64,000 nucleotides of DNA from Spirosoma rhododendri (GTDB taxonomy: Bacteria; Bacteroidota; Bacteroidia; Cytophagales; Spirosomataceae), in contig NZ_CP051677.1 in the NCBI RefSeq assembly GCF_012849055.1, positions 62,001 through 126,000 of the forward strand, given 5' to 3'. This document shows positions 3,632-59,938 of this stretch, piece by piece. Each line of letters begins with the position of its first letter. Positions within the stretch are counted from its first letter, which is position 1. Below the pieces are notes generated by a model, which saw only the letters and a list, made by a program, of their open reading frames with translations, was not told the origin of the DNA and did not search any database. The position numbers were made by a program, and so were the translations under genes.

Positions 3632-3747
3632 TTTGTCATGCTGACGTAGCCGGGCGGCCGGTGCCGAAGCATCTTCGGGCGAACACGATTTAGCCTGTCT
3701 CCGAAGATGCTTCGGCACCGGCCGCCCGGCTACGTCAGCATGACAAA
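3632..3747. repeat. Long palindromic element with perfect 47-bp arms
   Basis: Arms 3632-3678 and 3701-3747 are exact reverse complements around a 22-nt spacer. They contain CATGCTGACGTAGCCGGGCGG and GCCGAAGCATCTTCGG, the latter itself palindromic. It fills the gap between convergent genes ending at 3542 and 3770. A stable hairpin this long resembles REP/MITE-type intergenic elements rather than a normal terminator. The arm length equals that of the element at 58102-58233, although the sequence differs. Confidence 0.85.
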
Positions 3748-15340: not shown

Positions 15341-18300
15341 GTGCACACGACTAATCGCTTCCGGTTGCTGGCCTGCCTGTTGCCGCTGCTGGTAAATACA
15401 CCCCTCACGCTCTCGGCACAGTCTGAAAAAGCCGATGCCCCTGCGCCCCGCTTTGCCGTTGCCGAACCAACGCTTTCGCCCGACGGCCGCGAAATCGCCT
15501 TTGTCTCTGGGGGCGATATCTGGACGGTACCGACGACGGGGGGCGAAGCGCGGCTGCTGGTGGCCCATTCCGATAACGAATCGCGCCCACTCTACTCACC
15601 CGACGGCACCTACCTGGCTTTCGGCTCGACCCGCTCCGGCAACGGCGATATCTACCTGCTCACGCTGGAAACCGGCGAACTCCGCCGACTGACTTACGAC
15701 GACGGGGCCGAAACGCTGACCGGCTGGGCACCCGACAGCAAGATAGTTTATTTTCAGTCAACGAGCCGCGACGTGGCCGGGATGAACGACATCTACCGGG
15801 TGCCCATCACGGGCGGCACGCCGATGGCCGTCACCGCCGACCGCTACGCCAGCGAATTCTACGGCACCCCCTCCCCGACGGGCAGACGCTGGCTTTTTCG
15901 GCGCGGGGTATCGCTGCCGCACAGTGGTGGCGCAAAGGCAGCAGCCACCTCGACCAAACCGAACTCTGGACCTGCAAGCTGAACCTGAAGAAAGGCGACA
16001 AACCCAGCTACGAACGGCTGACGGAAGGGGGCGCGAAAGAACTGTGGCCGCAATGGAGTCCCGACGGGCAGACACTGTACTACATGTCGGACCGTAACGG
16101 GAGTCAGAATTTGTGGGCCAAACCGCTCAAAGGGCAGGCCGTGATGCTGACCCAGTTTAAGACTGGCCGCGTGCTGTGGCCCGCTATCAGCCAAACTGGT
16201 AAAATCATTGCGTTTGAGCGCGATTTTCAGATCTGGACATACGACATCGCTACAAAGCAGACCGCCCCGGTGGCCATCCGGTTGCGAGGTGCGGCAGCGG
16301 GTCCGTCGGTCGATCACCAGAAACTAACCAGCCAGTTTCGCGATTTGGCCCTGTCGCCCGACGGGAAGAAGGTCGCGTTTACGGCCCACGGCGACGTGTT
16401 TGCGACGTCGGCCAAAGACGGGGGCGATGCAGTTCGACTGAGTAACACACCCGCGCTGGAATCGCAGCTGGCGTGGCTGCCTAACAGCCGCAGCCTGATC
16501 TACGTCAGCACCCGAAATGGGGCGGGAAATCTGTACCAGTACGATTTTGGCACCCGCACCGAAACCCGCCTGACCGACAACCACGAGGACGACGGCGCAC
16601 CGGTACTGTCGCCCGATGGGCAGTCGGTGGCGTTTATCCGAAACGGGCAGGAACTACACGTGCTGGAGTTGAGCAGCAAGAAAGAGAAACAGTTATACAA
16701 AGGGTACCTGGGTCGGTCACCGTTTGCCAGCAGCGGCACGGTGGTGTGGTCGCCGGACGGAAAATGGCTGGCGTTCGCCGTGTACGGGGCCAAGACGTTC
16801 CGCAACGTGTGGGTGGTGCCCAGCAGTGGTGGCGACGCGAAGGCAGTTAGTTTTCTGGCCAACACCTTCGGCGGCAACCTGACCTGGAGCCCCGACGGCA
16901 AATACATTCTGTTTGGCACGAATCAGCGCACCGAGCAGGCTCAGCTGGCCCGCGTCGACCTGACTCCGCACGCACCCCGGTTCCGGGAAGATCAGTTCCG
17001 CGATCTATTCAACGAGGAGGTGCCGCGCACGATTCGCCCCACCAGCCCGTCGACGCCGGTAACGCCCAGCTCCACGACCGACAAAGCCCCCAACCGCGAC
17101 ACGCTGACAAATAGCCCCAAAACCAAAGCCGGTCCGAAAGAAATCACCAGCATCGTATTCGACGGTATTCGCCAGCGTATGAGCCTGGTACCGATTGGGG
17201 TCGAAGTCGACGCGCAGTCGATCAGTAAAGACGGCAAAACGCTGCTGCTGACCGCGACGGTGGGCAACCGGCAGAACCTGTACACCTACTCGCTCGATGA
17301 AACCAGTGCCGAGCGGCCCGTCGCTAAGCAACTGACGACCACGCCCGGCCAGAAAAGCAACGCGCAGTTTACGGCCGATAGCAAAGACGTGTTTTACATC
17401 GAGCAGGGCCGTATTCAGTCGGTGTCGCTCGACAAGCGGGAACCGAAACCACTGGCGGTAACGGCCGAACTCGACGTTGATTTCGGCGCTGAAAAGCTAC
17501 AGGTATTCCAGCAGGCGTGGGATGTGCAGAACAAAGGCTTCTACGACCCGGCGTTCCACGGCGTCGACTGGGCGGGGGTGAAAAAGCAGTACGAACCCCT
17601 CGTGGCCGGTGCCCGTACGCCCGATGAACTGCGTCGATTGCTGAGTCTGATGGTCGGTGAACTGAACGCGTCGCACTCGGGCGTGTCGGGGCCGCAAGGG
17701 TCCATCGACATCACCACGGGCCGACCGGGGCTGCGCTTCGACCGGATCACCTACGAGACCACGGGCAAACTACTCATTACGGAGGTGGTCGACATGGGTC
17801 CGGCCGATCTGTCGGGGACCATCAAGCCCGGCGACTATCTGGTGTCGGTCGACGGCACGGCGATTGACAAAAACACCAACCTAGATCAGTTGCTGAGCAA
17901 CAAAATCAACCGGCAAACCCGGCTTGGTATCGCCCCCTCGCCTACCGGTACCGTCCGTGACGTCAACGTACAGCCGGTCAATCAGGCGACGGAGAAAGGT
18001 CTGCTCTATAAGCAGTGGGTGCAGCAGCAGCGCAATTTTGTTGATAAAGCCAGCAAGGGTCGGTTGGGCTACGTGCACATGTACGATATGTCGTCGGAAT
18101 CGCTCAATCAGCTGTTCCTCGATCTCGACGCGGAAAACCACAACCGGGAGGGTGTCGTGGTTGATGTGCGGAACAACAACGGTGGGTTTGTCAACGCCTA
18201 CGCCATCGACGTCTTCACCCGCAAGGGCTACCTGACTATGACGGGTCGGGGCATGCCGTCGGCACCGGCACGCACGCAGCTTGGTCAGCGCGCCCTCGAA

Positions 18301-19411: not shown

Positions 19412-20194
19412 TTATAGCGTCAGCGTTGTTCCAGCACCATGGATAACAGCTGTTGCCAGTTCGTCGGCGTGACAGATGACAACGCGGGAGACACCGCTGC
19501 GCAGGGCCTGAAACGCATTGTCCAGCTTCGGGATCATGCCTTTGTTAATGGTTCCGGCGGCTTTGTGCTCGTCGTAAACGGCTGGCGTCAGGTCAGGCAT
19601 GACGCTGTTGTCGTCATCGGGATTGCTCAGTACGCCTTTCTTCTCGAAACAGTAAACAAGCGTCACTTCGTTATGGCGCACCATATCAACCGCCACGGCC
19701 GACGCCATCGTATCGGCATTGGTATTGAGCAAATCGCCGGTTTTGCTGTAGGTGAGTGGCGCAAAGACGGGCGTCAGTTCCTCGCGCAGAAACGCCTGAA
19801 TCCGGCCCGAATCGACTTCGTCAATGTCGCCGACCATTCCGTAATCGACGTCTTTAACGGGCCGTTTGTGGGCGAGTACGGTACCGGCGTCAGCACCAGT
19901 CAGGCCAATGGCGTTAATGTCAAGCGTTTGCAGCTTCGCCACGATCTGCTTGTTGACCAGTCCGCCGTAGACCATCGTCACGACGTTGAGCATCGACTGA
20001 TCGGTAATCCGCCGACCGTTGACCATCGTCGTCTGAATACCCAGCTTCTCGGCTACCTGCGTCGCTACCTTTCCACCGCCATGAATCAGGATTTTAGTCC
20101 CCGGCAGTCCAGCGAAAGCGGTCAGAAAACGAGTCAGCGCGGCCGGGTCATCAATCACGTTCCCGCCAATTTTTACTACGGTGAGTTGTTCCAT
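19412..20194 (-). CDS. argB: Acetylglutamate kinase
   Basis: 260 residues, the usual length. The amino-acid kinase fold shows KIGGNVIDD at the N-terminus, LIHGGGKVAT, GLTGADAGTVLAHKR, and LNTNADTMASAVAVDM near the ATP site. It phosphorylates N-acetylglutamate, the second step of arginine synthesis in the cytoplasm. It is the last gene of the minus-strand run argD, GxxExxY gene, argF', argB. An A+T-rich inverted repeat separates it from argF', and a bidirectional terminator follows. The local set lacks argC, argE, argG and argH, which must lie elsewhere. Confidence 0.95.
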   Translation of the reverse strand: MEQLTVVKIGGNVIDDPAALTRFLTAFAGLPGTKILIHGGGKVATQVAEKLGIQTTMVNGRRITDQSMLNVVTMVYGGLVNKQIVAKLQTLDINAIGLTGADAGTVLAHKRPVKDVDYGMVGDIDEVDSGRIQAFLREELTPVFAPLTYSKTGDLLNTNADTMASAVAVDMVRHNEVTLVYCFEKKGVLSNPDDDNSVMPDLTPAVYDEHKAAGTINKGMIPKLDNAFQALRSGVSRVVICHADELATAVIHGAGTTLTL

Positions 20195-20196
20195 TC

Positions 20197-20273
20197 TGGG
20201 TTTAACGTTTATAGTTTAATGTTCAAGGTTTTGTGGCACAACTTTAAACCTTAGACCTTAAACGTTGAACCCA
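20197..20273. repeat. A+T-type inverted repeat in the argF'-argB gap
   Basis: Arms at 20197-20230 and 20241-20273 are made of AAGGTTTAACGTT-type units. The right arm covers the last codons and the stop of argF' (20258-20260). It belongs to the family also seen at 32092, 33136, 40973, 57409 and 59851. Confidence 0.75.
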
Positions 20274-32092: not shown

Positions 32093-32177
32093 GTTTAACG
32101 TTTAATGGTTAAGGTTCAAGGTTTATCCGAGTCGTTTCACAAACCAACTTTAAACGTTAGACCTTAAACTTTGAACT
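32092..32177. repeat. A+T-type inverted repeat after the GH105 gene
   Basis: Arms 32092-32124 (AGTTTAACGTTTAATGG...) and 32146-32177 contain the same GTTTAACGTTTAAGGTT-type words on opposite strands, starting at the last base of the stop codon and ending 4 bases before the Kelch start. Confidence 0.75.
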
Positions 32178-33135: not shown

Positions 33136-33242
33136 GTTTAAGGTTTGTGGTTTAACGTTTAAGGTTGGCTGACGCAAACGAAACACCGGTCGACTGATGC
33201 ACCAACCTTAAACGTTAAACCTTAAACTTTAGACCTTAAACC
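33136..33242. repeat. A+T-type inverted repeat between convergent Kelch and GT4 genes
   Basis: Arms 33136-33168 and 33201-33242 pair over GGTTTAACGTTTAAGGTTGG. The right arm contains the stop codon of the minus-strand GT4 gene (33236-33238). Confidence 0.8.
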
Positions 33243-34303
33243 AGCGCAGCATACACCCCCAAGTACTGCCGGGCTGCGGTTTGCCAGGTGAAGCGGGCGG
33301 CATGGTGGCGGATGGCCTCAGCGCGGGCGTTGCGTTCGTAGTCGGCTATACCCTGCCGGTAGGCTGTCTGCATCGCTTCGGGGGTGAAGTCGGGGAAGTA
33401 GTAGGCTGCGTCGCCACCGACTTCGGGCAAAGCCGTCAGCGTCGAGAGGAAAACGGGTTTGCCAAACTGCATCGCTTCGAGTACCGGCAGGCCGAAGCCC
33501 TCTGCCAGCGATGGGTGCACCAACGCCCGGCAGTTTCGCAGATACCAGCCCTTGTCGGTCTCCGACACCGTCCCCAACAACCGCAGCCGGTCGGCCACGC
33601 CCATTGCCTGCGCCTGTTGCTGCATAGCGGTTACGTAATCCGGGTCGTCGGGTCGGCCGATCAGCAGCAGTTCCAGCTCGGGATTGCTTGTCAGCAGGGG
33701 CAGCAGGACGTGAAAATTCTTCTTCGCGTTTAGGTAGCCAATCCCCAGCAGAAAGGGTCGATCCGGCTGATAATCAACCGGCTTCGTTTCACCACTAGGC
33801 ACCGGGTCGACGCCGTTGTAAATGACGTATATGGGTTTATCGTCAGTGCGGCAGTGGGTCAGCACATCGTTTTTCGTGAACTCGGAAATGCAGACGAGCG
33901 CATCGCTACGGTCAATCAGCGACTGCGTCAGGGCCATTCGTTTTTGCTGCATGGCCTGCGATTCTCCTTCGTGCAGTACGTTCAGGTCGTGAATGGTCAG
34001 CACCACCTTCGTGCGGGGAAATCGGCGTCGATCCGGCACGATACGACCCAGTTGAAAGGGCGCGTGCCACACCCGACAGTCGCGCAGGAAAGGCTGGTAG
34101 AACGAGTGCCACCATTGCTCAATGATGTGGTACGGCTGCGAACGGATCTGTAGACGTCGGCGGGGGGGTAGGTAAAGCTGTACCGGCGAACGACCGGCCT
34201 CTGCCTGTTGCTGATTCAGGTGCGAACCCAGATTCAGGCAGTACTGATAAAGCCCTGTGTGCGGGTGTTTCATAGGCCCGCAGTCCAGAATAATTTTGCC
34301 CAT
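33236..34303 (-). CDS. GT4-family glycosyltransferase (divergent paralogue A)
   Basis: 355 residues from ATG 34303 (MGKIILDCGPMKHPHTGLY), chosen by alignment with the divergent paralogue at 34548; ATG 34342 is an alternative. GT-B fold: VLTIHDLNVLHEGE, DALVCISEFTKNDVLTHC, FLLGIGYLNAKKN and the donor-site segment VHPSLAEGFGLPVLEAMQFGKP with the EX7E glutamates. Likely adds sugars to a cell-surface glycan. Its stop lies in a repeat arm. Confidence 0.86.
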   Translation of the reverse strand: MGKIILDCGPMKHPHTGLYQYCLNLGSHLNQQQAEAGRSPVQLYLPPRRRLQIRSQPYHIIEQWWHSFYQPFLRDCRVWHAPFQLGRIVPDRRRFPRTKVVLTIHDLNVLHEGESQAMQQKRMALTQSLIDRSDALVCISEFTKNDVLTHCRTDDKPIYVIYNGVDPVPSGETKPVDYQPDRPFLLGIGYLNAKKNFHVLLPLLTSNPELELLLIGRPDDPDYVTAMQQQAQAMGVADRLRLLGTVSETDKGWYLRNCRALVHPSLAEGFGLPVLEAMQFGKPVFLSTLTALPEVGGDAAYYFPDFTPEAMQTAYRQGIADYERNARAEAIRHHAARFTWQTAARQYLGVYAALV

Positions 34304-35622: not shown

Positions 35623-37461
35623 ATGAAGATTTATAGACGGCTGCTGGTGTATGCCCAGCCCTACGGACGATTTTTGGTACCCTTCGTCCTGTTTACCTTG
35701 ATTAGTGTGGTGTTCAACGTATTTCAGTTCGCGTTGATTATTCCCCTGCTCAACTTTCTGTTCAACCCCGTCAGCACGGCCGATGCGACCCGCTATGCAC
35801 AGACGCCCACGTTTAGCCTGTCGCCCGATTATTTCAAGGACACGTTCTACCACCTGATCTACCAGGCCAAAACCACCAACCCGCTCTACGTGCTGTATTT
35901 CATTGCAGGCATGATCGTGGTGGCCGTTATCATGACCAACCTGTTCCGGTTTATGGCTCAGCAAACGCTGCTCCGTGCCCGTACGTTATTGGTAAAACGG
36001 TTGCGCGAAGCGTTGTTTGAGAAGATCAATCACCTGCACCTGGGTTACTTCACCAAAGAGCGTAAAGGTGATCTACTATCGCGGCTCAACGGCGACGTGT
36101 ATGCCATCGAAAGTGTCGCAAGCAGTTCGGTCGAAGTGGTGTTCAAAGAGCCGTTTATGCTCATTAGCTACTTCGTGGCCCTATTTGCCATCTCGTTTAA
36201 GCTGACACTGTTTACGCTGGTCATCATCCCGATTTCGGCGGTCGGTATTTCGGCCGTGACCAAAAAACTCAAGAAAGAAGCGCAGGACGTGCAGTCGTCG
36301 ATGGGCCGGATGCTGACGCTGATGGACGAAACGCTGATGGGAATGCGGATTCTGCGGGCATTCAACGCAACACCCTTCGTGCTGGATCGCTTCGCCGTCG
36401 AAAACGATTTCTACCGCCGGGTAAGCCTCGACAGTTTCAAACGACGCGAACTGGCACCCGCTTTTTCCGAAGCATCAGGCGTATTCGTCGTAGCCTGTAT
36501 TCTGGTGTTTGGCGGCAGTCTGGTGCTCAGCAGTCAGAGCGATTTACAGGCGAGTTCGTTCATTGCGTTCATCGCCATTTTTTCGCAGGTGATCCGTCCG
36601 GCCAAAGCCATTGTGGTTGCCATTACCAACATTCAGCAAGGGCAGGCAGCCGGGGAACGCGTCGTAGAACTGCTCGACAAACCGGTCGAGATTCAGGACA
36701 AACCCAACGCCCGGCCGATGCCGCCATTCGCCCGCGAGATTGTATTCGACAACGTCAGTTTCCAGTACGGCGACAAGCCCGTGTTGAAAAATATCAGCTT
36801 CACCATCGGCAAGGGCAAGAAGATAGCCCTCGTTGGTCCGTCAGGCGTAGGCAAGTCTACGATTGCCGATCTGATTCCCCGCTTTTACGAAACGGATCAG
36901 GGCCGTGTCAGTATCGACGGCGTCGATGTGCAGGACTACACGATGGAGTCGTTGCGGGCGCAGATGAGCTTTGTCACGCAGGAAATTATCCTGTTCAACG
37001 ACACGATTTTCAACAACATCGCCCTCGGCAAACCCGACGCGAAGCTGGAAGACGTGATCGCAGCGGCCAAAATCGCCAACGCGCATCAGTTCATCATGGA
37101 CACCGAAGACGGTTATAACACAACCATCGGCGACCGGGGTATCCGGCTCAGTGGCGGGCAGCGGCAGCGGCTCAGCATCGCGCGGGCCGTGTTCAAAAAA
37201 CCGTCGATTCTGATTCTGGACGAAGCCACCTCGGCACTGGACCTCGAATCGGAAAAGTCGGTGCAGGACGCCCTCGACAACCTGATGGAAGGCCGCACGA
37301 CGCTCGTTATCGCCCACCGCCTGAGCACGATCCGCGAAGCCGACGAGATCCTGATTATGGAAAAAGGCGAGATCATCGAGCGCGGCAACCACAACGAACT
37401 CATCAATCAGGAAAACAGCATCTACCGCCGACTCAACACCATGCACGAGGTGTTGCAGTAA
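35623..37461 (+). CDS. MsbA-like ABC exporter (fused permease and ATPase)
   Basis: 612 residues. Six transmembrane helices (about 15-345), including a VFNVFQFALIIPLL segment and a coupling region KERKGDLLSRLNGDVYAIE. The ATPase half has Walker A GPSGVGKST (about 407), Q-loop FVTQEIILFNDT, signature LSGGQRQR, Walker B ILILDEATSALD and the switch His in VIAHRLST. This is the lipid A/glycolipid flippase type of type I exporter. It lies directly after a GT4 gene and before a GTAGCCTGGAC-type repeat. Essential MsbA or a specialised glycolipid exporter cannot be told apart here. Confidence 0.92.
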   Translation: MKIYRRLLVYAQPYGRFLVPFVLFTLISVVFNVFQFALIIPLLNFLFNPVSTADATRYAQTPTFSLSPDYFKDTFYHLIYQAKTTNPLYVLYFIAGMIVVAVIMTNLFRFMAQQTLLRARTLLVKRLREALFEKINHLHLGYFTKERKGDLLSRLNGDVYAIESVASSSVEVVFKEPFMLISYFVALFAISFKLTLFTLVIIPISAVGISAVTKKLKKEAQDVQSSMGRMLTLMDETLMGMRILRAFNATPFVLDRFAVENDFYRRVSLDSFKRRELAPAFSEASGVFVVACILVFGGSLVLSSQSDLQASSFIAFIAIFSQVIRPAKAIVVAITNIQQGQAAGERVVELLDKPVEIQDKPNARPMPPFAREIVFDNVSFQYGDKPVLKNISFTIGKGKKIALVGPSGVGKSTIADLIPRFYETDQGRVSIDGVDVQDYTMESLRAQMSFVTQEIILFNDTIFNNIALGKPDAKLEDVIAAAKIANAHQFIMDTEDGYNTTIGDRGIRLSGGQRQRLSIARAVFKKPSILILDEATSALDLESEKSVQDALDNLMEGRTTLVIAHRLSTIREADEILIMEKGEIIERGNHNELINQENSIYRRLNTMHEVLQ

Positions 37462-37462
37462 G

Positions 37463-37616
37463 GTGTAGCCTGGACCTCCCGGTCTGGCGGCCGAAAAATG
37501 TAGCCTGGACGTCCACGTCCGGGTGGACGCGAAGCGGCCTGGTGCTGCCGCCTTACACAGTTGCCCTGACGGGCACCCGGACGTGGACCGCACCGGCGGA
37601 CCGGTCCAGGCTACAC
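37463..37616. repeat. GTAGCCTGGAC-type palindromic element between convergent genes
   Basis: TGTAGCCTGGAC occurs at 37464-37475, again without the first T at 37500-37510, and inverted at 37604-37615. GTCCACGTCCGGGTG and its complement form an inner stem; the right arm holds about 15 extra bases. It looks like a composite of one partial and one full palindrome. Confidence 0.75.
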
Positions 37617-37628
37617 AGTCATACTAAG

Positions 37629-38906
37629 CTACACTTGCCGGCCTCTGGACTTGGAGCGTTTCGCTGGTGCGGTCGCGGCTGTACTCACATAATCAACCGC
37701 TTTGTCGAATTTTTCGAGAACGGCTTGCCAGGTGTAATTCTGCTGCACATACCGTTTTCCGTTTTCGGCCATCTGGCTGATATCCTGCGTCAGGATGTTA
37801 TCGATGGCCGTTTCAAACTCGGCATAGTCGCGGTACGCGTACCCGGCATGACTCGCTTCGATGTGGTCGAGCAGAATTTCGCAGTTGGCGTTGGCAATCA
37901 CCGGGACGCCAACCGACATACTCTCCAGCGTCACCATCGACAGACTTTCGTAGGGCGACGGCATCAACATGGCTTTCGCACCCAGTAGCAGCCGGGCCTT
38001 TACGTCCTCATCGACAAACCCGGCCGGGATGATATCGGGGTGGCCGGGGATATCCATAAACGACTGCCCGACGAGTACCAGTTTCAGCGGAGCCGGATGC
38101 TTCTTTTTGTAGCGTAAAAACTGATCGATCATCACATCGCAGCCCTTCGCCTTATCAATCCGGCCGACGTACAGCAGGTAATCAGCATCGGTACCGATCA
38201 GTTCAGCCGCTGTTTTCTCCGACACGGCATGGGGCGGCTCAATACCGACTCCCACAACGTCGCTGTGGATATCCTGATTGGCAAAGAGCTGATTAACAAA
38301 CCGCTGCTCGGCGACAGTATTGTACAAGATAGCCCGTGGCCGGTGAAAAACCGCCGGGAATATGGGCAGGTAGATCGGTTTCTCATCGTGCGCGGTCGGA
38401 ATGAGAATTGACTTATGCGGAGCGACCGTCAGACCCTCTATCGTGGGATAGTAGAGGTACGTGAAGAAGATCAGTGCATCATACTGCTGATGGTTCTGGC
38501 GGAGATACTCAATCAGCTCGGGCGTGTATGGTCCCTGATAACGGGGCCACATGCGAAGGCACTCGTCGACCGCCGGTCCTTTCAGCGAATAGTACTTTTT
38601 CTTCAACCACCCCCAGGCACCCCGCTTGTCCATAGCCATCAGTTTACGCAGCTGATGCTCGGTTTGTCCAGACAATTTTGACTGCCGCTCGTAGGCCGTG
38701 GCAAAGCGCCTGACGCGAACGCCGTGAATCATCACCGTTTCGGCCGGATACCAGTTAGACCACTTCTGGTACTCGATGGCACAACTCGTCAGCACATCGA
38801 CCTCATAGGTATCTGTTAGCCGTTCGGCCAGGATACGGCAGTGGTATTCCGCCCCACCATTCACCTCAACGCCGTAGCGCTGCACGATAAAAGCAATCTT
38901 TTTCAT
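37629..38906 (-). CDS. GT4-family glycosyltransferase
   Basis: 425 residues. N-terminal MKKIAFIVQRYGVEVNGGAEYHCRILAERL is typical of GT4 enzymes acting on surface glycans. The C-terminal domain has YLLYVGRIDKAKGCDVMIDQFLRY and the donor segment MLMPSPYESLSMVTLESMSVGVPV with its EX7E glutamates. A basic tail (AKRSKSRGRQV) could bind membrane. Longer than the other GT4 proteins here. It converges on the ABC exporter across the GTAGCCTGGAC-type repeat and may belong to the same glycolipid pathway. Confidence 0.86.
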   Translation of the reverse strand: MKKIAFIVQRYGVEVNGGAEYHCRILAERLTDTYEVDVLTSCAIEYQKWSNWYPAETVMIHGVRVRRFATAYERQSKLSGQTEHQLRKLMAMDKRGAWGWLKKKYYSLKGPAVDECLRMWPRYQGPYTPELIEYLRQNHQQYDALIFFTYLYYPTIEGLTVAPHKSILIPTAHDEKPIYLPIFPAVFHRPRAILYNTVAEQRFVNQLFANQDIHSDVVGVGIEPPHAVSEKTAAELIGTDADYLLYVGRIDKAKGCDVMIDQFLRYKKKHPAPLKLVLVGQSFMDIPGHPDIIPAGFVDEDVKARLLLGAKAMLMPSPYESLSMVTLESMSVGVPVIANANCEILLDHIEASHAGYAYRDYAEFETAIDNILTQDISQMAENGKRYVQQNYTWQAVLEKFDKAVDYVSTAATAPAKRSKSRGRQV

Positions 38907-40972: not shown

Positions 40973-41048
40973 AGTTTAAAGTTCAATGTCCAATGTTCAA
41001 GGTTTGCTGAAGCGTTAACCTTGAACACTGGACATTGAACTTTAAACC
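40973..41048. repeat. A+T-type inverted repeat between SDR gene and guaA
   Basis: Arms 40973-41004 and 41017-41048 pair with a single mismatch (AGTTTAAAGTTCAATGTCCA...). A hairpin of about 30 bp, it probably also acts as a terminator for both convergent genes. Confidence 0.85.
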
Positions 41049-46092: not shown

Positions 46093-46123
46093 CACCGGTA
46101 CCTGAACTGGCTGACAAGGCTGT

Positions 46124-46236
46124 ACCCGATAGCTTCCAGCCGCTCGGCGGTCCGATGTCGGAGCCGCGCTAGCGGCTAACCGGGCGAATCTACTTTAGCC
46201 TGACGATTCCGACAGCTGGAAGCTGTCGGGGACAAT
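46124..46236. repeat. G+C-rich palindromic element, shortened copy of the 58102-58233 element
   Basis: The left arm AGCTTCCAGCCGCTCGGCGG... and the loop AGCGGCTAACCGGGC...TTTAGCCTGACG match the 58102-58233 element in the opposite orientation. The right arm has lost about 15-25 bases (GCTGGAAGCTGTCGGGGACAA remains). Lies between the DUF3823 gene and the NamZ-like gene. Confidence 0.8.
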
Positions 46237-52555: not shown

Positions 52556-53782
52556 TTGAATCTTTCTTTATTTCTGGCCCGCCGGGTGCGCCGTGCCCCG
52601 CAGGGTAGCTTCTCGACCACCGTTACCCGTATCGGCATTGGCAGCATCGCGCTGGCACTGGCGGTTATGATTATTGCGTTTGCCGTACTGTTTGGCTATC
52701 AGCGGTCTATTCAGCAAAAAATCTTCTTGTTCGGGGCCCATTTGCAAGTCAGCAAATTCACCAACAACCATTCGTACGACGATACGGCGCTGCCGCTCAA
52801 TACGCCCCTGTTCAACGCCGGCGCCAATATTCCGGGCGTTGACCATATACAGGCTGTCGCCACCAAACCGGGTATCCTGAAAACACCCGACGAGCTGGCC
52901 GGCGTCGTGCTGAAAGGTGTCGGGCGCGATTACAACTGGAATCTGCTACGCGAATCGCTGGTGGCGGGTACGGTACCCGAAGTGGGGGCTGACACGGGTA
53001 ATGGCTCGACACAGTTGCTGATTAGTCAGTACATGGCCAATCAGTTGAAGGCGACCGTCGGGCAGTCGCTGCCGCTGTATTTTCTGGGCAACCCGCCCCG
53101 CGCCCGCAAAATGACCATTGTCGGCATCTACGAAACGGGGCTGGAGGAAGTCGATAAAACAATCGCACTGGGCGACATCCGCCTGATTCAGCGGCTAAAC
53201 AAGTGGGGCCCCGACACGGTAGGGAGTTACGAAATTTTCGTGCGCGACTTCAGCAAACTCGACCAAACCCGCGAAACCGTATTCGACCGGTTATCGCCCG
53301 ACATGCGGCTGGTATCGGTCAAAGAACAGTACCGCCCCCTCTTCGACTGGATGCTCCTGCTTGACCGCAACATGGTTATTCTGCTGGGGCTGATTGCGTT
53401 TGTGGCGTCGTTCAACATGGTATCGGTGCTGCTAGTGCTGATGATGGAACGGACGCCCATGATCGGCCTGCTGAAGACGCTGGGCGGCACCGACACCCTC
53501 ATCCGGCGTATGTTTCTGCACGTCGGGCTGGGTATGGTTGTGTGGGGGCTAGTGATCGGCAACGTGATTGGCATCGGCTTATGCTTTCTACAGGATCGGT
53601 TCCGGCTTATTCCGCTCGATCCCAAAAACTACTTTATCAAGTACGTACCCATCGCCTGGGACTGGCCGACCATTCTGGCTCTCAACGGCGCGACCGTTCT
53701 GCTGATCGCTCTGGTGCTCTGGATTCCGACCATCATTATCAACCGTATTCAGCCGATACGGGCGCTGGCGTTCAAGAAGTAG
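52556..53782 (+). CDS. FtsX-like ABC transporter permease (LolC/LolE-like)
   Basis: 408 residues from TTG 52556 (LSLFLARRVRRAPQGSFSTTVTRIGIGSIALALAVMI). One N-terminal membrane helix, a large periplasmic MacB-PCD-like domain (about 50-265), then three C-terminal helices with the FtsX motif VSVLLVLMMERTPMIGLLKTLGGTD. Similar to the lipoprotein-releasing LolCE permeases that extract lipoproteins from the inner membrane. The partner ATPase LolD is not adjacent. A TAAATTTG element lies about 105 bases upstream. Confidence 0.87.
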   Translation: MNLSLFLARRVRRAPQGSFSTTVTRIGIGSIALALAVMIIAFAVLFGYQRSIQQKIFLFGAHLQVSKFTNNHSYDDTALPLNTPLFNAGANIPGVDHIQAVATKPGILKTPDELAGVVLKGVGRDYNWNLLRESLVAGTVPEVGADTGNGSTQLLISQYMANQLKATVGQSLPLYFLGNPPRARKMTIVGIYETGLEEVDKTIALGDIRLIQRLNKWGPDTVGSYEIFVRDFSKLDQTRETVFDRLSPDMRLVSVKEQYRPLFDWMLLLDRNMVILLGLIAFVASFNMVSVLLVLMMERTPMIGLLKTLGGTDTLIRRMFLHVGLGMVVWGLVIGNVIGIGLCFLQDRFRLIPLDPKNYFIKYVPIAWDWPTILALNGATVLLIALVLWIPTIIINRIQPIRALAFKK

Positions 53783-53880
53783 CGCATCGTTGACCGGGCG
53801 GTTCAACAGCGTCTTTTACGGGCTATGCGGCCTTGGGCTTTCTTCGTATCTTTGGTATAATTTCCAGATACGATAGAACT

Positions 53881-56800
53881 ATGATTACTCAACGGCGACA
53901 GGAGCAAGCAGATACGACACCCGTTCGTCAGCATAAAATCCGTATCGTAACGGCGGCTTCGCTGTTCGACGGGCACGATGCGGCTATCAACCTGATGCGT
54001 CGGCTAATGCAGGCATCGGGGGCAGAAGTGATTCACCTGGGGCACAACCGGTCGGTAGCCGACATTGTCGACTGCGCTATTCAGGAAGACGTGCAGGGCA
54101 TCGCCATAACGAGCTATCAGGGCGGCCATCTAGAGTTTTTCAAATACATGCACGACCTGCTCAGCGAACGCGGAGCGGGACATATAAAGATTTTTGGCGG
54201 TGGGGGCGGCACCATCCTCCCGCGCGAAATCGAGGAACTACACGCCTACGGCATCACGCGCATCTATTCACCCGACGACGGTCGGTCGATGGGTTTACAG
54301 GGTATGATCGATGATCTGCTGAACCAGTGTGATTTCGCCCTTTCCCCTGCTGATACCGATACCATCGCCCGGCAAATCACCACCGCCGAAAATGACGGTC
54401 CGAAAACCAGTACCCACCGAAACCCAACAACTGATCGATGCCCCGTGCTGGGCATCACCGGCACCGGGGGCGCGGGTAAATCGTCGCTGATCGATGAGCT
54501 GGTACTGCATTACCTGCGGACCTTTCCCGACAAAACGCTGGCCATTATCTCGGTCGACCCGTCGAAGCGGAAAACGGGCGGGGCGCTTCTCGGCGACCGC
54601 ATCCGCATGAATGCCATCAACTCGCCGAGGGTATACATGCGGTCGCTGGCGACGCGGCAGTCGAACCTGGCGCTGAGCCGCTCGGTGCAGGACGCTATTG
54701 ACATCTGCCAGACGGGCGGGTTTGATTTGATTATCGTAGAGACGTCGGGCATCGGGCAGTCGGACACGGAGATTACCGAACATGCCGACAAGACACTGTA
54801 CGTGATGACGGCGGAATACGGTGCAGCTACGCAGCTCGAAAAAATCGACATGCTCGACTTTGCCGACGTCATCGCGATCAACAAATTCGATAAACGCGGC
54901 TCCGCCGATGCACTGCGCGACGTTCGGAAGCAATACCGACGCAACCACAACGACTGGGACACGCCCGACGACGAGTTACCCATCATTGGCACGATGGCGT
55001 CGCAATTCAACGACGCAGGCATGAACACCCTGTTCGCTCGGCTGATGGCGGTTCTCGGTGTTCGGTTTTCGGTACACAGTGAACACAGTATCGACGTGCC
55101 ACCCACCGTAAACCGAATATCAACTGCCGTAAACCCCATCATACCCCCGACCGGGTACGCTACCTGGCCGAGATTGTAGAAGAAAGCCGCCGGTACGACC
55201 GATTCGTCGACGAGCAGACAACGCTAGCCCGGCAACTATATCAGCTTGATGGGACGCTGGCGATGCTTTTACCCTCACCCCCGGCCCCTCTCCCAAAACA
55301 GGAGAGGGGAGCAGTACTCCCGCTAATTCCCCCCTCTCCCGTTTTGGGCGGTCCGCCGTCGCGGGAGGGGCCGGGGGTGAGGGCGACGAGGGAAACCCTC
55401 GAACAACTCCGCGCGCAGCTCGACGCCCGGATGCATCCCGACTGCCGGGCTTTGCTGGCGCAGTGGCCTGCTATGCAAACGCGCTACACAGCTGATTTCT
55501 ACGAATTTACTGTTCGGAACAAGACCATCCGGCAACCGCTGTATACCGAAACCCTGTCGCATTTGCGCGTTCCGAAAGTGAGCCTGCCCAAATACCACGA
55601 CTTGGGCGACGTACTGCGCTGGCTGCTGACCGAAAACGTGCCGGGCGAATTCCCGTACACGGCGGGGGTGTTTCCGCTCAAACGGGAAGGTGAAGATCCG
55701 ACGCGGATGTTTGCGGGCGAAGGCGGTCCCGAACGTACCAATCGCCGGTTCCACTACGTCTCGAAAGGTCAACCCGCCAAACGCTTGTCAACAGCTTTCG
55801 ATTCGGTGACGCTCTACGGTGAAGACCCTGCCCTCCGCCCGACATCTTTGGTAAAGTTGGCAATTCCGGCGTCAGCGTTTGTACGCTCGACGACGCCAAA
55901 AAACTCTATTCCGGCTTCGACCTCTGCGATCCAGCCACGTCGGTGTCCATGACCATCAACGGCCCCGCTCCCATTCTACTGGCCTTCTTCCTCAACGCAG
56001 CCATTGACCAGCAGTGTGAGAAGTGGTTACGGGAGAATGTAAATTCCCTCACCCCCAGCCCCTCTCCCAAAACGGGAGAGGGGAGCAGTACTCCCGCTAA
56101 TTCCCCCTCTCCCAAAACGGGAGAGGGGCCGGGGCGGTCGGCCGCTGCCGTGAGGGGATGGACGAAGAAAAGGGTAACGCCCACTACAACGGCCCCCTAC
56201 CCGATAATAACAACGGACTTGGCCTGCAACTACTCGGCACAACGGGCGACCGGGTCGTACCGCGCGAGGTCTATGAGCAAATCAAAGCCGATACGCTGCA
56301 ACGGGTGCGCGGAACGGTACAGGCCGACATTCTGAAGGAAGATCAGGCGCAGAACACCTGCATTTTCTCGACGGAATTTGCCCTGCGGATGATGGGCGAT
56401 ATTCAGCAGTATTTCACCGACCACCGGGTGCAGAACTTTTATTCGGTGTCCATTTCCGGGTACCACATCGCCGAAGCCGGAGCCAACCCGATTTCGCAAC
56501 TTGCCTTTACGCTATCGAACGGCTTTACGTTCGTAGAATACTACCTGAGCCGGGGCATGCGCATCGATGACTTTGCGCCTAACCTATCGTTCTTTTTCTC
56601 GAATGGTATGGACCCGGAGTATACCGTGATGGGTCGGGTGGCGCGTCGGATTTGGGCCAAGGCCATGCGGAACCGGTACGGGGCCAACGAGCGGTCGCAG
56701 AAACTCAAATACCACATTCAGACCTCGGGGCGAAGTTTGCACGCGCAGGAAATCGGCTTCAACGACATCCGCACGACCCTACAGGCGCTGCTCGCTGTGT

Positions 56801-57408
56801 ATGATAACTGTAACTCGCTGCATACCAACGCCTACGACGAAGCCATTACCACGCCCACGGAAGAGTCGGTGCGCCGGGCGATGGCAATTCAGCTGATTAT
56901 CAACCGTGAATTTGGGTTGACCAAAAACGAAAATCCGTTGCAGGGCTCATTCGTTGTGGAAGAATTGACCGATCTGGTGGAGGAAGCCGTGTACCAGGAG
57001 TTTCTGGCGATCAATGAGCGGGGCGGTGTACTGGGCGCTATGGAACGAATGTATCAGCGCAGCAAGATTCAGGAGGAGTCGATGTACTACGAGACGCTGA
57101 AACACAACGGCCAACTGCCTATCGTCGGCGTCAACACCTTCCTCGACCCGGCTGGCTCCCCTACCCTGACACCCGCCGAAGTTATCCGCTCGACCGACGA
57201 CGAGAAACGGTATCAGGTCGACAGTTGCCGGGCGTTTCAGGAGCGCAATCAGGAAGCCGCAGCAACGGCCATCGCCCAGCTTCAACAGGCGGCTTTAACC
57301 GGTGACAACATTTTCGAGAGCCTGATGGAAGCCGCCAAGGTGTGTTCGCTGGGTCAGCTCACCCACGCCCTCTACGCCGTCGGCGGGCAGTACCGGCGGA
57401 ACATGTAG
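53881..57408 (+). CDS. icmF: Fused isobutyryl-CoA mutase IcmF, interrupted by two palindromic inserts and three frameshifts as sequenced
   Basis: One protein split over frames 53881-55179, about 55141-55840, about 55841-56155 and about 56150-57408. Order: B12-binding domain ([17 protein letters not shown]), MeaI-type GTPase ([36 protein letters not shown]), then the mutase barrel ([75 protein letters not shown]) ending GGQYRRNM. It interconverts isobutyryl- and n-butyryl-CoA. Missing bases are likely in the runs at 55144-55148, 55838-55840 and 56154-56157. Two 112-base palindromes sit inside it with the frame open. GTPase, B12 and active-site segments are intact. Confidence 0.88.
55272..55383. 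repeat. CTCACCCCC-type palindromic element inside icmF (copy 1)
   Basis: About 112 bases with complementary ends (CCCTCACCCCCGGCCCCTC ... GGGGCCGGGGGTGAGGG), an internal CTCTCCCAAAACAGGAGAGG stem and the core AGCAGTACTCCCGCTAATTCC shared with copy 2. Translated in the icmF frame it reads [14 protein letters not shown]... and REGPGVR without a stop. It lies between the GTPase and mutase domains. Confidence 0.85.
56046..56156. repeat. CTCACCCCC-type palindromic element inside icmF (copy 2)
   Basis: About 111 bases with the same left end, CTCTCCCAAAACGGGAGAGG stems (twice) and the same AGCAGTACTCCCGCTAATTCC core as copy 1. The right end is diverged (GGCCGGGGCGG...GTGAGGG). In the local frame it codes [20 protein letters not shown]... 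with no stop. It lies in a variable loop of the mutase domain. Confidence 0.85.
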
Positions 57409-57503
57409 GTTTAATGTCTAAGGTCTAACGTTTAAGGTTGTTGGCTACCGCCGAGATTGTCTCCGTGCCAACAACCTTAAACGTTAGACCTTAGACATTA
57501 AAC
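57409..57503. repeat. A+T-type inverted repeat with perfect 37-bp arms after icmF
   Basis: Arms 57409-57445 and 57467-57503 are exact complements (GTTTAATGTCTAAGGTCTAA...) with a 21-nt spacer, starting directly after the icmF stop codon. The clearest member of the family. Confidence 0.9.
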
Positions 57504-57610
57504 TCAAAAAACAGAGGGCCAGTACCGATGCCGTCAAAAAGTACCCAACCATCGACGCATAACTTGAAGACTGGCACCCCTGTCGCACTATACGGCGGGC
57601 AAAAATTTGA

Positions 57611-58101: not shown

Positions 58102-58233
58102 TTGTCCCCGGCAGCTTCCAGCCGCTCGGCGGTCCGATGTCGGAGCCGTCAGGCTAAAATGGACTTAGCCCGATTAGCCGCTATCGCGGCTCCGACATCG
58201 GACCGCCGAGCGGCTGGAAGCTGCCGGGGACAA
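58102..58233. repeat. G+C-rich palindromic element with perfect 47-bp arms
   Basis: Arms 58102-58148 and 58187-58233 are exact complements (TTGTCCCCGGCAGCTTCCAG...). The 38-nt spacer carries a further GGCTAA...TTAGCC pair. A second, shortened copy lies at 46124-46236 in the opposite orientation, so this is a dispersed family. It lies between the MerC gene and the transporter gene. Confidence 0.88.
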
Positions 58234-59423: not shown

Positions 59424-59845
59424 ATGAAAAAGACACTCATTGCCGCCTTTGCGCTTTTCGTTCTGACCGCCGGTAGCAGCATGGCGCAACGCGTTTACCA
59501 GCGCCCGTTCGACAACCGCCCCCCGCTTATGGCAATCAGGGGTATGGGAATCAACAGTACCCCAACAACCCAAATGATGAGTTCCGCGACGAACTAAAAA
59601 TCGAGCGGCTCGACGCGCTGGTCGGTCTATCGCGTCGGCAGGAGAAGCAGTTGCACCGCATCGAAGACAACTACGACAACCTGTTTGCCACCTCGCGCTT
59701 TACCCCCGACGGACTCCGGCAGGCCCGCGCCCGCAAGCGCGATGAGATGCTGTCGGTGCTGAACCGCTCGCAGCGTGAACGCCTGTTTGCCGCCCAGCAA
59801 AACAACCGCCCCAACCGCCCCGGCGGTTTCTACGGACGGAGATAG
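59424..59845 (+). CDS. Small secreted protein of unknown function, frameshifted as sequenced
   Basis: About 140 residues from ATG 59424. A signal peptide (MKKTLIAAFALFVLTAGSSMAQ) is followed by RVYQRPFDNRPP. The frame then fails; one extra C in the six-C run at 59519-59524 gives AYGNQGYGNQQYPNNPNDEFRDELKIERLD and joins the frame that ends at 59845. The mature part is charged and helical (LVGLSRRQEKQLHRIEDNYDNL, QARARKRDEMLSVLNRSQRERLF), like small periplasmic helical proteins of Cytophagales. Not otherwise recognised. Confidence 0.65.
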
Positions 59846-59850
59846 TCGCC

Positions 59851-59927
59851 AGGTTCAAGGTTTGTGGTTTAATGGTCAAGGTTTCTGCGATGATAACTTT
59901 AAACATTAAACCACAAACCTTAAACCC
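59851..59927. repeat. A+T-type inverted repeat before the GH1 gene
   Basis: Arms 59851-59883 and 59895-59927 pair over AAGGTTTGTGGTTTAATG with a 11-nt spacer. It ends 6 bases before TACCTTTG (59934-59941), which overlaps the start of the GH1 frame. Confidence 0.8.
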
Positions 59928-59938
59928 AACAACTACCT

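Follow-up and report, generated by a model that had tools for sequence, protein, structure and literature searches.

Palindromic repeats in the icmF gene of Spirosoma rhododendri and at recurrent loop sites of other Spirosoma proteins

How can the gene of a conserved enzyme hold two copies of a palindromic repeat within its coding region? This question is raised by icmF for the fused isobutyryl-CoA mutase of Spirosoma rhododendri, which lies in a window of 64 kb (the whole stretch of DNA analysed, 64,000 nucleotides). The earlier note had described there two copies of one palindromic element, inserted into the protein and tolerated at harmless sites as in Rickettsia. We searched 36 Spirosoma genomes, 35 of which have an icmF match, including the genome holding the window (G000; other G codes denote compared Spirosoma genomes and L codes individual loci). 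Very probably, REP/MITE-like palindromes of several families insert widely in these genomes, copies that fall in frame into tolerant loops persist and are translated, and the two elements (E1 and E2) are such copies in icmF. The features concerned are as follows.

53881..57408, plus strand: icmF, for B12-binding domain, MeaB-type GTPase, linker and mutase; three ORFs as assembled
55142..55143, plus strand: frame change 1, beside a C run, one base fewer than in G013
55254..55427, plus strand: icmF site 1 interval, between LYQLDG and R(L/M)HPDCR, 174 nt in the window
55272..55383, plus strand: element E1, 112 nt, at icmF site 1 (linker)
55837..55838, plus strand: frame change 2, at a C run, one base fewer than in G013
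56024..56196, plus strand: icmF site 2 interval, from an upstream 10-residue anchor to LPDxNNGLG, 173 nt in the window and 57-141 nt in the other 32 genomes
56046..56156, plus strand: element E2, chimeric, with left end CCCTCACCCCC and right end CGGTCGGCCGCTGCCGTGAGGG, at icmF site 2
56103..56107, plus strand: likely place of frame change 3, a C run inside E2

The two copies are indeed of one element, with 62 nt in common at 97% identity, an identical core AGCAGTACTCCCGCTAATTCC and stems CTCTCCCAAAAC, and they lie where they had been placed, E1 between the MeaB-type GTPase and the mutase and E2 in a loop of the mutase. Common ends, which had also been claimed, were found for E1, with CCCTCACCCCC at both ends, but not for E2, whose right end is CGGTCGGCCGCTGCCGTGAGGG without the complement of CCCTCACCCCC and by eye resembles the end of another palindrome, that of icmF site 1 in G013 and site 2 in G025. 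Similarly, both quoted peptides are correct, but they are read from different phases of the element. The sequence CCCCTCTCCC occurs six times in the 64-kb window against 0.09 expected. The predicted RNA folds are strong in comparison with shuffled sequences (-84.1 kcal/mol and z -8.4 for E1; -72.7 kcal/mol and z -6.0 for E2). A known RNA family was ruled out for the icmF region, as 53500-57600 had no Rfam match at the gathering threshold. In alignment with Cupriavidus IcmF (4xc6), site 1 falls behind the G-protein domain and site 2 at a gap near residue 735; according to the available part of the source, a linker joins the G-protein and mutase domains of that enzyme (PMC10481361).

Both icmF sites were examined in 33 genomes, leaving out G014 and G026 with distant matches only and G023 with no match. 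Site 1 is without insert in 22 of them (69 nt in 21, 68 nt in G032), which rules out a native linker at this place, and measures 72-174 nt in the remaining eleven, always a multiple of three. Site 2 varies from 57 to 173 nt and is a multiple of three in 31 of the 33 genomes, with G000 (173 nt) and G012 (131 nt) as exceptions; in the G012 element, one arm is one C shorter than the other. An inverted-repeat score of at least 12 was reached by site 1 in 5/33 and by site 2 in 8/33 genomes, against 1 of 189 control windows from the same loci, which were 60-135 nt long and thus slightly shorter than the longest inserts. By eye, the insert families differ between species (CCCTCACCCCC, CCCTCACGGCAGCGGCCG, ACCCCACCCC, CTGTCCGTGGTCG, GCTTCGTGCGGGG and others), and even the close relatives G000, G013 and G025 have three different palindromes at site 2. 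The icmF inserts of G001, G015 and G021 matched only themselves in their own genomes, and a few partial copies were found for the insert of G020 and the second insert of G029. The alignment of homologues proposed earlier as a check thus bears out the insertion: most Spirosoma icmF genes lack the residues at site 1, and others have palindromes, often of other families, at the same two places.

A third recurrent site is the loop of MiaB after GQNVDSYK, viewed in 30 of the 35 genomes with a match. It measures 30-135 nt within open frames of 481-538 aa; that all these lengths are divisible by three follows from the search for both anchors in a single frame. The score of at least 12 was reached in 10/30 genomes against the same 1/189 control windows, with the other 20 below it, and G027 has up to 34 perfectly paired bases. 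The loop sequences differ between species groups, and several of the weaker ones were judged by eye to be decayed repeats.

Such loops might even be landing pads, in which a resident palindrome is replaced or rebuilt by another through template switching, hairpin recombination or a palindrome-recognising transposase, so that unrelated families would exchange at the same codon interval and make new protein loops. This speculation comes from three observations, namely the left end of one family and the right end of another in E2 and the inverted inner module of E1 at site 1 of G013 (both by eye), and the different site-2 palindromes of G000, G013 and G025. We consider it unlikely, if worth keeping in mind.

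The reading frame of icmF, claimed to be left open, turned out to be split as assembled into ORFs at 53833-55179, 55263-55952 and 56158-57408, the frame changing near 55142, again near 55837 and a third time within E2 or beside it. We aligned the window to 80 kb of the near relative G013 and found that 4/57 aligned G013 ORFs are split in the window. In the reverse direction, more than one G013 frame is matched by 3/71 aligned window ORFs; two of these belong to genes of the first comparison, and the third, at 37118-37985, maps to two frames in G013. The six frame-shifting differences located in four window genes (two in icmF) are all single missing bases at or beside C runs in the window and none is an insertion, in a count that leaves out one-base gaps at the extreme ends of aligned stretches, including an apparent insertion at 16299. 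Outside icmF, these deletions lie at 15873, 30854, 31198 and 44969 and split three further genes. Moreover, E2 has five C after AATT where E1 has six, which would explain why site 2 measures 173 nt. Because the losses at C runs are one-sided and E2 shows the same shortfall, sequencing error is likelier than decay, and the comparison suggests that the frame shifts of the assembled icmF are sequencing or assembly errors. Three frame changes in one gene could also mean that icmF is a pseudogene in this strain and that the elements landed in dead DNA. This is quite unlikely, however, in view of the error-like pattern of the six shifts, the C missing from E2, the strong scores of the mutase and GTPase domains and the icmF of G013, where a single open frame of 1177 aa runs through other palindromes at the two sites. 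The icmF of G032 is also split as assembled, though it is without an insert at site 1.

The element of E1 and E2 belongs to a dispersed family. Its architecture, of about 98-112 nt, consists of two hairpins CCCCTCTCCCAAAACGGGAGAGGGG inverted around a short core, with ends CCCTCACC/GTGAGGG. At least 61 BLAST matches were found in G000, where 40 of 74 candidates were scored, and the end motifs gave 51 occurrences there against 0 for the reversed control. A strict 37-nt half-element is present in 6/36 genomes (41 in G000, 39 in G003, 11 in G012, 6 in G008, 3 in G002 and 1 in G022) and absent from the other 30, including G013 and G025. This absence agrees with an amplification in the line of G000. 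The contrast is nevertheless a matter of degree, as a looser hairpin pattern was found at five places in G013 and three in G025, both draft assemblies in many contigs. Among the G000 loci examined (20 two-ended copies and 14 single ends), an ORF spans the copy in 4/6 two-ended copies of 96-130 nt, in 0/14 of those of 144-231 nt and, among the single ends, in E2 only. Of these four short copies, E1 and the copy in an acylase lie in known genes, a third is probably located ahead of a gene start, and the fourth is in a doubtful 119-aa ORF. The cores vary between copies, and the long cores of the G000 copies are distantly related to one another.

In-frame copies inside genes, which the earlier note had proposed to count, were also found in other conserved genes. 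In G000, 3/34 copies or single ends lie in conserved genes, the third being in frame in a penicillin amidase (the acylase). The acylase loop has inserts in G000, G034 and G012 among 30 genomes viewed (35 with a match); that of G012 is out of frame as assembled, as is its icmF site 2 of 131 nt. G013 and G025 have only a short ALTP stretch in this loop, which we read as an insert remnant. In G012, 20 hairpin matches gave 12 places, with in-frame copies within the Pfam domains of an MpaB-like oxygenase, a GH13 enzyme and a GT9 enzyme, and another copy (L192) in a 273-aa ORF without Pfam match. The GH13 loop has an insert in G012 and G034 of the ten genomes with the gene and none in the other eight, and the GT9 loop in G012 only, among 31 genomes viewed. 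G008 has in-frame copies between two domains of adenine deaminase and in a methyltransferase, immediately after its matched part. In G003, 3/34 copies lie in such genes, namely adenine deaminase (at the same place as in G008), PbpC and an FAD oxidase; a further copy (L431) lies in a doubtful 158-aa ORF, and at L409 ORFs come from both sides of the copy, of which the long upstream one stops short of the element.

A second family, ACCCCACCCC, to which the site-1 insert of icmF in G012 belongs, is also dispersed. The joined query gave 97 first-look candidates in G012, 40 of which were scored, which makes at least 40 places with icmF among them, some being closer to the related site-2 insert of G013. 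Besides icmF, eight of the 39 places have a spanning ORF, seven of which are of known family. The copies of an ABC exporter ATPase, an MFS carrier and MiaB lie inside a domain and those of UvrA and an FG-GAP protein between domains; a phosphoesterase and an FAD oxidase have an above-cut-off match on only one side of the copy. The eighth, L288, had no family match. At six of the other 31 places, ORFs on one strand come from either side; at L279, L284 and L290 they belong to two different genes, at L292 the upstream SusD gene is complete, and the flanking ORFs of L268 and L283 had no Pfam match. A gene broken by a copy was demonstrated at none of the 39 places in G012. Thus, all eight copies in genes of known family, including icmF, are in frame, for which the chance at 1/3 is 1.5e-4, or 0.009 with three ambiguous places counted against.

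The inserts might be useful in themselves, as domesticated linkers or as mRNA hairpins that slow translation between domains, and be kept by positive selection. The repeated occupation of the same loops, the position of one site between GTPase and mutase and the strength of the RNA hairpins speak for such a role. On the other hand, site 1 is empty in 22/33 genomes, families, lengths, peptides and phases all vary, and the acylase remnants of G013 and G025 suggest loss, which makes positive selection very unlikely. Still less credible is an element evolved for translation with a conserved coding phase, as the earlier note had considered: stop codons are often lacking in short copies, and it is to this short subtype that the in-gene copies belong, but the 13 translated copies tallied use two phases (8 and 5, by eye, with E2 counted from the upstream frame), which argues against an element adapted to coding, and cores vary between copies and no long two-ended copy of G000 (144 nt or more) has a spanning ORF. 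Selection for harmless sites, which the same note had offered beside it, is the better reading.

Tolerated insertion with later selection accords with what is observed, that is, a dispersed family, its sites in homologues, in-frame copies in other conserved genes and different families at one site. E1 and E2 would be short, dispersed, non-autonomous palindromes that inserted into icmF at two places tolerating extra residues. Landing would be widespread, purifying selection would remove the copies that break genes, and copies without stops that keep the frame and lie in a loop or linker would persist, decay and get replaced, so that several Spirosoma palindrome families come to use the same loops in different species. 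The insert would be carried in the protein as an exposed peptide. Judging from the sequences, these proteins are probably made and working, and a mobilising enzyme probably moves the element.

The single Y1_Tnp (RAYT-like) match of G000 is unsupported as the mover of E1 and E2, since it is flanked by a different palindrome. The element has terminal inverted repeats, as have the MITEs of DDE transposases, but differs from these in its target sites: no consistent direct target-site duplication was found in 67 copies, and 0/28 copies of the CCTCACC family have two shared end-adjacent bases. The flanks of the CCTCACC-family copies tend to be complementary, and those of the ACCCCACCCC family of G012 show a slight excess of shared bases (6/39 against 2.4 expected).

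In-frame palindromes of this kind are already known from the Rickettsia palindromic elements (RPEs) and the intragenic GTAG/CGTC REPs. RPEs are of about 100-150 nt and several families, and stand in frame in unrelated conserved genes whose products are thought to be functional, according to the accessible portions of the papers (PMC10969869, PMC2229807). The Spirosoma elements are likewise dispersed palindromes of about 100-150 nt in several families, inserted in frame in unrelated conserved genes, except for E2 and the icmF site 2 and acylase of G012 as assembled. They differ from RPEs, as far as described in these portions, in their ends and sequence, in their free-living host of the Bacteroidota, in the translation of more than one phase and in the filling of one protein loop by different families across species. 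GTAG/CGTC REPs lie inside ORFs outside Rickettsia too, including uvrA of Opitutus terrae and Thioalkalivibrio, and loops and linkers have been suggested as tolerant sites in the part available (PMC3733652). The Spirosoma palindromes resemble these REPs in lying inside ORFs, uvrA included, and in loops or linkers. On the other hand, no GTAG or CGTC end tag was seen by eye on the printed copies, themselves picked by CCTCACC/GGTGAGG ends, the unit is a longer pair of hairpins, and it does not adjoin the sole RAYT-like gene of G000. The Correia elements of Neisseria have species of 107 and 155 bp, the short stop-free form in genes and the longer form with stops between genes, as given in the accessible text (PMC2229807). 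Going by that text, the short stop-free copies in genes and the longer copies without spanning ORF in Spirosoma are much alike, and the lack of a consistent target-site duplication is a difference. The ends of the Correia element are also different from those of the Spirosoma element.

No prior report of coding palindromes in Bacteroidota or Spirosoma was recognised in the open-licence literature. Within the literature searched, what appears to be new is chiefly that different families have repeatedly filled the same orthologous loops, and in addition the end sequences and the group of hosts concerned. Selfish DNA seems to become part of working Spirosoma proteins again and again. In-frame palindromes are best known from Rickettsia and intragenic REPs are scattered over other species; Spirosoma is a genus with cultured free-living members and has palindromes in the core enzymes UvrA, MiaB and IcmF. 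Since empty and differently filled orthologous loops stand side by side, insertion, replacement, decay and functional effect can be tested by natural comparisons. These loops are also a warning: where Bacteroidota proteins have variable loops rich in Pro and Gly, these may be translated repeats.

Outside Spirosoma, 76 of 80 loci have the anchors of site 1, and only L342 scored above all 179 control windows for palindromes there; a phylum-wide claim is therefore not made. At icmF site 2, Mucilaginibacter L308 has hairpin repeats that are similarly built and in part dispersed through its genome, with L331 and L312 as weaker cases. Short hairpin repeats (CCTCACC, CTCTCC-AAAG-GAGAG) lie at the same sites in these three loci, which come from Mucilaginibacter and a Sphingobacteriales MAG, and about ten further partial copies of the site-2 piece of L308 were seen in its genome. 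For the inserts of L349 and L352, no other full copy was found. A protein model of L308 from 24 sequences is of moderate quality (pLDDT 67.5), with the 45-residue stretch 721-765 at site 2 below 50, and would place site 1 at a turn between helices 436-470 and 474-490.

Other palindromes and element ends were observed in G000. The Y1 transposase of L259 (G000:C1:971581-971823) is flanked by its own palindrome GTCTCAAACAGCATCCTGCTGTTTG, by eye unrelated to E1 and E2, and at L081 (G000:C1:306195-307271) element ends, one of each end type, lie 1077 nt apart and enclose an ORF of about 220 aa. In the window, a further palindrome family (GTTTAAGGTTT...AACCTTAAAC), whose arms reach up to 37 nt, begins right after the icmF stop at 57409-57503, with related copies near 20186-20270, 32093-32176, 33136-33248, 40974-41047 and 59840-59938. 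A perfect 47-nt inverted repeat, TTTGTCATGCTGACG... around a 22-nt loop, lies at 3632-3747, and another perfect one of 47 nt at 58102-58233 has a relative 12 kb away that is 91% complementary, with arms at 46121-46188.
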